Source: an uncultured Desulfovibrionaceae bacterium (lineage in GTDB: Bacteria > Desulfobacterota > Desulfovibrionia > Desulfovibrionales > Desulfovibrionaceae). From it: a stretch of 64,000 bases of DNA. Location: assembly GCA_944325195.1 (NCBI GenBank), contig CALUZB010000008.1, positions 62,001 through 126,000 of the forward strand. Direction: 5' to 3'. A program made the translations under genes and the position numbers. The notes beneath the pieces were generated by a model that made no database searches, was not told the DNA's origin, and was given only the letters and a program-made list of their open reading frames with translations. Shown here piece by piece: positions 31,531 through 32,013 of this stretch (the stretch's first letter is position 1; each line of letters starts with the position of its first letter).

Positions 31531-32013
31531 CAGTCAAGACAATTGCTTTTTTATGATTAATGCGCTAATGCAATCCCTGGGGAAAAGTATCTCTTAAAAA
31601 CTGTCACTTTCAGGGGTTGTGGTGAGTAAGCATAGCAGTAAAGAGGCTGAGGTCGAGTTTGTTCGGCGTTCTGGCCCGATTTTTGCTACTTACTTACTTA
31701 CTTACTTACTTACTTACTTACTTACTTACTTACTTACTTACTTACTTAACGCACCGCCCTTTTGCCGCGTCCAAACCGCCGCCCCGGGCGGCTTTCGGCG
31801 TTTATCACATTTACAAGATAATGGCCGATATTTCCGCCGAATTGACTGTTATATTCCACTTATTTCTTTATTTTGGTATAAACCAGATCATTCATAGTGG
31901 TTACGGACTAATCAGATGCCAGGAGCCGGGTACCGGCCTGCTCCTGAATTCATATCGACTCAGGGCGAAAGCCGTTAACATCAAGTGTTGCAGATTTTAA
32001 CCGGAGTATAGCC
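31531..32013. other. Upstream region of the diguanylate cyclase, with repeat tract
   Basis: Apart from the terminator tail it holds the TACT tract (31687-31748) and two open frames running through it: 31619-31897 (92 codons from GTG) and 31659-32000. Neither peptide is recognised outside the repeat-coded TYLL units. The promoter of the cyclase gene must lie here. Confidence 0.45.
31687..31748. repeat. Tetranucleotide tract (TACT)15.5
   Basis: 62 bases of perfect TACT repeats, 15.5 units, ended by AACGC. Such tracts change length by slipped-strand mispairing and underlie phase variation in many bacteria. The next gene, a diguanylate cyclase, starts 265 bp downstream. The tract reads without stops in all three frames (TYLL repeats). 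Confidence 0.97.

Follow-up and report, generated by a model that had tools for sequence, protein, structure and literature searches.

The tetranucleotide tract that precedes a diguanylate cyclase gene in the window, the 64-kb stretch of DNA analysed here, is not a lone microsatellite but the variable core of a structured element with dispersed copies. The parts of this element occur in a constant order, namely a start codon with a short leader ORF, a first hairpin (hairpin 1), the core GGCC[CT]GATTNTTGC, a microsatellite, a second hairpin and often a third (hairpins 2 and 3). We propose that the tract forms the core of a phase-variable attenuator in which the number of repeat units decides where translation of the leader ends. 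We consider it probable that the element works in this way and thereby switches the expression of the downstream gene.

The tract occupies 31687–31748 on the forward strand, which also carries all other features of the element given below. Its 62 bases are a perfect (TACT)15 followed by TA, that is (TACT)15.5, with 100% matches by Tandem Repeats Finder, in agreement with the initial annotation. It is thus the long perfect repeat of a short unit that is sought in a simple-sequence contingency locus, and it is far too long to have arisen by chance. It is also single, with no second SSR of similar length in the 64-kb window and no other TACT tract of at least 13 bp in the 2.48-Mb genome to which the window belongs, where a control pattern had 0 matches at 20 bp. 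The tract is flanked by an autotransporter gene (27994–31458) and by a gene at 32014–33579 (forward strand), whose GTG start at 32014 lies 265 bp from the tract as previously described. The latter encodes a 521-aa diguanylate cyclase of the sCache_3/dCache_3-GGDEF type (Pfam GGDEF, 1.1e-49; sCache_3_3, 3.1e-21). It had been annotated as a Cache-HAMP-GGDEF protein with intact active and inhibitory sites. The Cache and GGDEF domains were recovered, Pfam reported no HAMP domain at E ≤ 0.001, and the GGEEF motif and the RxxD inhibitory site were both judged intact by eye. No element was detected upstream of the orthologous cyclase in the other genome of the genus.

Tracts of at least eight TACT units were found in only three other genomes among 288 of the family. 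Two of these genomes (three loci) share the flanks of the window tract, with CGGCCCGATTNTTGCAC on the 5′ side and TTAGCGCACCNCCC on the 3′ side followed by a GC-rich hairpin. A pattern combining the repeat and the core recovered the window-like TACT loci as well as a fifth copy, with one control match at chance level. A first profile (R1) then found copies with CACT, CTAC or, most often, AC repeats in place of TACT; across all copies the unit is mostly (AC)n, with TACT, CACT, CTAC and TC represented as well. The repeat, where present, is directly 3′ of TTGC/GGCC[CT]GATTNTTGC, and this position is kept while the unit differs. The core pattern alone had matches in 24 of 45 selected genomes and its reversed control had 0. 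An isolated TACT microsatellite was ruled out, since five TACT loci in four genomes, and beyond them dozens of AC loci, have these flanks in common.

The compiled set consists of 65 distinct copies. When 345 genomes of the order were searched with a second profile (R2), at least 58 genomes in 17 genera matched at E ≤ 0.01 and more than 150 places scored below about 1e-8, both figures being lower bounds with nine candidates scored per genome. Many of the copies used to build the profiles recur among these matches, and their scores are non-independent evidence. Judging from gene content and genome sizes, the element family probably belongs to the Desulfovibrionaceae. Some contigs of metagenome-assembled genomes (MAGs) stop at the (AC)n of the element or inside it (G172:C26, G173:C8, G308:C3, G140:C44 and G138:C92); copy numbers in MAGs are therefore underestimated and repeat lengths uncertain. 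Two further repeats were observed on the side. One is (AGTA)8 in a genome of 30% GC (G034, L139:4044–4075), which lies immediately before a ferredoxin-like gene's ribosome binding site, has the opposite orientation and lacks the flanks of the element; it is a different repeat locus. The other is a short TTAC tract after TTGCAC (G342, L150), inside an ORF with a signal-peptide-like start (MKKVFFLHLLTYLLT...) and a strong terminator on its 3′ side. Possibly this is a distant relative that belongs to another family.

The structure of the element was defined on an alignment of 32 copies (A3), in which the start codon is typically 69–75 nt 5′ of the core. Hairpin 1 has the form GGCTGAAACC-NNN-GGTTTCGGCC and continues into TGATTTTTGC, after which come the repeat and TAACACCGCC... 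Hairpin 2 is CGCGC...GCGCGG with a T-rich tail, and hairpin 3, GGCCCTGTTTCC-TTCG-GGAGACAGGGCC-TTTT, is present in most copies. On this alignment, 86% of the cells in the three helices are paired compared with 36–52% in slid controls, and 14 of the 29 pairs have changes on both sides. What is conserved immediately 3′ of the repeat are hairpins with T-rich tails, and this points to attenuation or polarity. A search of Rfam gave no match above threshold.

The same parts can be located in the window. Hairpin 1 (31645–31676) is degenerate in this copy and folds with −12.6 kcal/mol; the corresponding helix in A3 has 82% of its cells paired and both-side changes at 4 pairs. It is followed by the core TGGCCCGATTTTTGC (31672–31686), which is nearly invariant in the family (alignments A1–A4), and, beyond the tract, by a conserved C-rich flank (CGCACCGCCC...CGCG; 31749–31777; alignments A2–A4) with a stop codon in one frame, TAA at 31747–31749, at its edge. 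Hairpin 2 (GCCGCC-CCG-GGCGGC) with its tail TTTCGGCGTTT is at 31778–31803, and helix 2 of A3 has 89% of its cells paired with compensatory changes. The tail is common to the window copy and two copies before flagellin genes in the same genome. Hairpin 2 is terminator-like in the family but has a weak T-run in the window, where a consensus scan did not call it as a terminator, and hairpin 3 is absent from this copy. Because of the poor T-run and the missing hairpin 3, termination in the window copy may need Rho.

Upstream of the tract, the window contains a predicted leader frame. A Shine-Dalgarno-like AGGGG (31612–31616) precedes GTG 31619 and GTG 31622, and such motifs and starts are found at a similar distance in other copies. 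From GTG 31622 (or 31619) the frame runs into the tract, which places the repeat in a short predicted ORF with its own ribosome binding site and start; at 15 units this leader ORF (VSKHSSKEAEVEFVRRSGPIFA-TYLLT...) extends over 31622–31897. In 59 of the 65 copies the equivalent frame, with G[PL]I[FL]A ahead of the repeat, stays open for at least 60 nt upstream. A Shine-Dalgarno-like motif of at least 4 bases together with a start is found in the leader frame of 36 copies compared with 4 and 6 for the other two frames, although the copies are related to one another and such counts across them are non-independent. Among 40 dissimilar copies, the leader frame is open in 34 while 18.1 were expected. 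The next frame (frame 1) is also open upstream in 31 of these 40, again above expectation, and the openness of the leader frame is therefore no proof by itself; a start codon in frame 1 is rare. In the G175 copy and in the chemoreceptor copy of the window's genome, the core is in a different frame of the leader.

The leader codons themselves change between related copies, with synonymous changes at 84 of 373 (22.5%) against an expectation of 23.8%. This result made a functional small protein unlikely as the product of the leader. Since the codons change without synonymous preference while the open frame and the hairpins are kept, the leader peptide is seemingly unimportant, as would be expected if the act of translation alone matters.

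With regard to where a transcript of the leader might start, a weak possible promoter, TTGCTT-N17-TAATGC, was read by eye at 31543–31571. Upstream of 55 copies there was no enrichment of sigma-70 hexamers (7.33 vs 7.40 matches), and an upstream sigma-70 promoter was dropped for this reason. In the AC-type copies, a block containing TGTGAC is conserved about 45–75 nt 5′ of the leader ATG; it is possibly a promoter or a regulator site.

The core itself resembles a sigma-54 promoter. Were GGCC[CT]GATTNTTGC a −24/−12 element, the transcript would start in the repeat and repeat length would alter promoter escape or the 5′ UTR, or else a small RNA would end at hairpin 2. The core fits TGGCACG-N4-TTGCW well, with full matches in the G135 and G217 copies, and its sequence is kept across different reading frames; 7 of the 8 genomes examined for rpoN have this gene. 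A −24 GG and a −12 GC ten bases apart are found in the window and in most copies. They are lost, however, in the two flagellin copies of the window's genome and in the G147 copy, all three of which have A in place of the first G of the −24 GG. In addition, hairpin 1, in which compensatory changes occur, accounts for the GGCC as its 3′ arm, and a promoter leaves the upstream start codon, the open frame and the arrangement of frames after the repeat unexplained. In view of the covariation of hairpin 1, the leader frame and the three copies that have lost the −24 G, we regard sigma-54 as unlikely to be the main explanation.

In translations from GTG 31622, the leader of the window stops at 31897 with the present 15 units, at 32000 with 14 units and at 31749 with 16 units, the three outcomes that the initial annotation had listed. 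The present state is thus one of read-through past hairpin 2 and so is that of 14 units, whereas the stop at 16 units is 29 nt 5′ of the inner stem of hairpin 2. Similarly, of 37 copies that have both a hairpin 2 and a usable start, 31 have a leader stop that falls before or after hairpin 2 depending on unit number. In their current state, 19 of these 37 are translated in silico through hairpin 2, 13 stop before it and 5 stop at its edge. Five of the 37 read through in every frame, and in one copy with a three-base unit a frame shift is impossible. Beyond the repeat, 89% of 56 copies have one or more frames open for at least 110 nt, as compared with 57% in shuffles, and another frame in these copies tends to stop within about 10 nt.

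We propose that the transcript starts upstream and that the short leader ORF spans hairpin 1 and the microsatellite. A leader stop just after the repeat would allow hairpin 2 to form, as well as hairpin 3 in many copies, resulting in termination or in Rho action, while a leader translated across the hairpins would let transcription get to the next gene. Slippage in the repeat would then move the downstream gene between high and low expression, heritably and reversibly. For the window, the prediction is that transcription reaches the diguanylate cyclase with 14 or 15 units and is attenuated with 16. The phase-variable switch suggested earlier for this cyclase is partly supported, in that the leader from GTG 31619/31622 fits well and the layout recurs in dozens of homologous copies; such tracts are specific neither to TACT nor to c-di-GMP.

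Alternatively, a phase-variable leader may act by Rho-dependent polarity or translational coupling instead of intrinsic termination, such that the frame would set the ribosome cover before the cyclase start. This would be consistent with the weak T-run of hairpin 2 in the window and with the 14-unit frame, whose stop at 32000 is 13 bp before the cyclase start. The conservation of hairpins with T-rich tails throughout the family argues against it, and a stop adjoining the downstream start is no general feature of the copies. Even in the window such a stop is present in only one of three frames, and translational coupling, as put forward before, fails as a general mechanism. We consider it improbable that either of these replaces the terminator hairpins of the proposed attenuator.

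The tract length differs between copies that are otherwise identical. On the single contig of G162 (1,410,056 bp) there are four near-identical autotransporter genes, each preceded by the element. These four copies have (AC)5 or (AC)10 despite flanks that are identical over at least 86 bp on the upstream side and 3186 bp on the downstream side, which indicates that the tract changes faster than its surroundings. Six copies in G133 range from 7 to 27 units, and a lactate permease locus has (AC)32 in one species and (AC)11 in another. All these repeat lengths were taken from assemblies, in which they can be wrong.

The element is co-oriented with the gene behind it in many cases. An ORF of at least 170 aa in the same orientation starts within 800 bp in 40 of the 64 copies outside the window, others being cut by contig ends. 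By Pfam, the products include autotransporters, inverse autotransporters, FecR, a dCache chemoreceptor and an outer-membrane barrel, three response regulators with HD-GYP-type domains, glycosyltransferases, a GHMP kinase and DegT, lactate and branched-chain amino acid transport and solute-binding proteins, and HsdR_N and DUF1156; restriction/modification genes are represented in this set. A second GGDEF protein was found behind the element in G147. These are typical contingency genes. That the element is a MITE- or REP-like mobile or repetitive sequence, intergenic and without regulatory effect, with an incidental microsatellite, is highly improbable, since for all its multiple copies, its many hairpins and the many MAG contigs that break there, it is frequently co-oriented with the next gene, those genes are functionally biased, and the leader frame and hairpins are retained despite sequence divergence.

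The profile search found three further copies in the window's own genome. One (G000:C4:621386-621503, L333) carries (AC)14 before the gene of a methyl-accepting chemotaxis protein (MCP) with a CZB domain and is a candidate for a second switch in this genome. The other two (G000:C25:35427-35533, L312, and G000:C25:665-772, L323) precede two flagellin genes; in both, hairpin 2 is intact and the repeat has decayed, as if the switch were locked. The copies in this genome precede the cyclase, the MCP and the flagellins, which links the module here to c-di-GMP, chemotaxis and flagella.

Most of what is known of simple-repeat phase variation concerns individual genes of host-adapted pathogens. Here, we find it somewhat easier to believe than to doubt that one homologous cassette of leader ORF, microsatellite and hairpins stands before many Desulfovibrionaceae genes, that its units (AC, TACT, CACT, CTAC, TC) are exchanged between copies and that each genome thereby has several switches that act independently on genes for the surface, chemotaxis, motility and c-di-GMP. 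Such a genome-wide modular system of phase variation would be previously undescribed in the literature searched. In the open-access literature searched, no relevant papers on phase variation in Desulfovibrio were found, nor was a dispersed, homologous, unit-swapping cassette in Desulfovibrionaceae, which is weak evidence of absence. If this proposal is true, one portable attenuator cassette lets these bacteria, which include probable protist symbionts of termites, bet-hedge genes for sensing, motility, the surface and c-di-GMP. The evolution of contingency loci would likewise become testable through the spread of a switch, the change of its repeat unit and its decay, as in the two flagellin copies. 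A further caution is that these cassettes are places where MAG assemblies break or collapse.

The proposed attenuator may be compared with several known systems. In the in-ORF tetranucleotide contingency genes of Haemophilus and Neisseria, slippage shifts the frame of a functional gene on and off, whereas the frame shifted in the element is that of a leader with a non-conserved peptide. In amino-acid leader attenuators such as trp, translation of the leader controls a downstream terminator hairpin. The element differs from these in that it lacks a regulatory codon run tied to the pathway of the next gene, and what varies is the repeat number. Attenuators of the trp type are discussed in PMC3894217. 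The TAAA repeat of Neisseria nadA (PMC2791445) and the T-tract of Helicobacter sabA (PMC4081817) are promoter or UTR microsatellites. Like the one proposed here, they tune expression by repeat number upstream of a gene; they act through the spacing of promoter or operator parts, whereas the repeat of the element sits in a leader frame between conserved RNA hairpins. The closest likeness is to pil1 and pil3 of Streptococcus gallolyticus, in which GCAGA repeats are in a short leader ORF and the number of units decides whether the stop falls before, within or after a hairpin terminator (PMC3894217). For pil1, it was proved by mutation that a short leader ending before the terminator gives low expression and a longer one high expression (PMC3894217). 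That the element works like pil1 is the best explanation, and the likeness is one of layout. The streptococcal case concerns two pilus loci with a pentanucleotide unit in a Gram-positive organism (PMC3894217), while the Desulfovibrionaceae element is a homologous module at many loci and in many genomes, with differing units, up to three hairpins and many kinds of genes behind it. The mechanism thus has a precedent in pil1, and the dispersed, homologous and unit-swapping cassette would be the new part.
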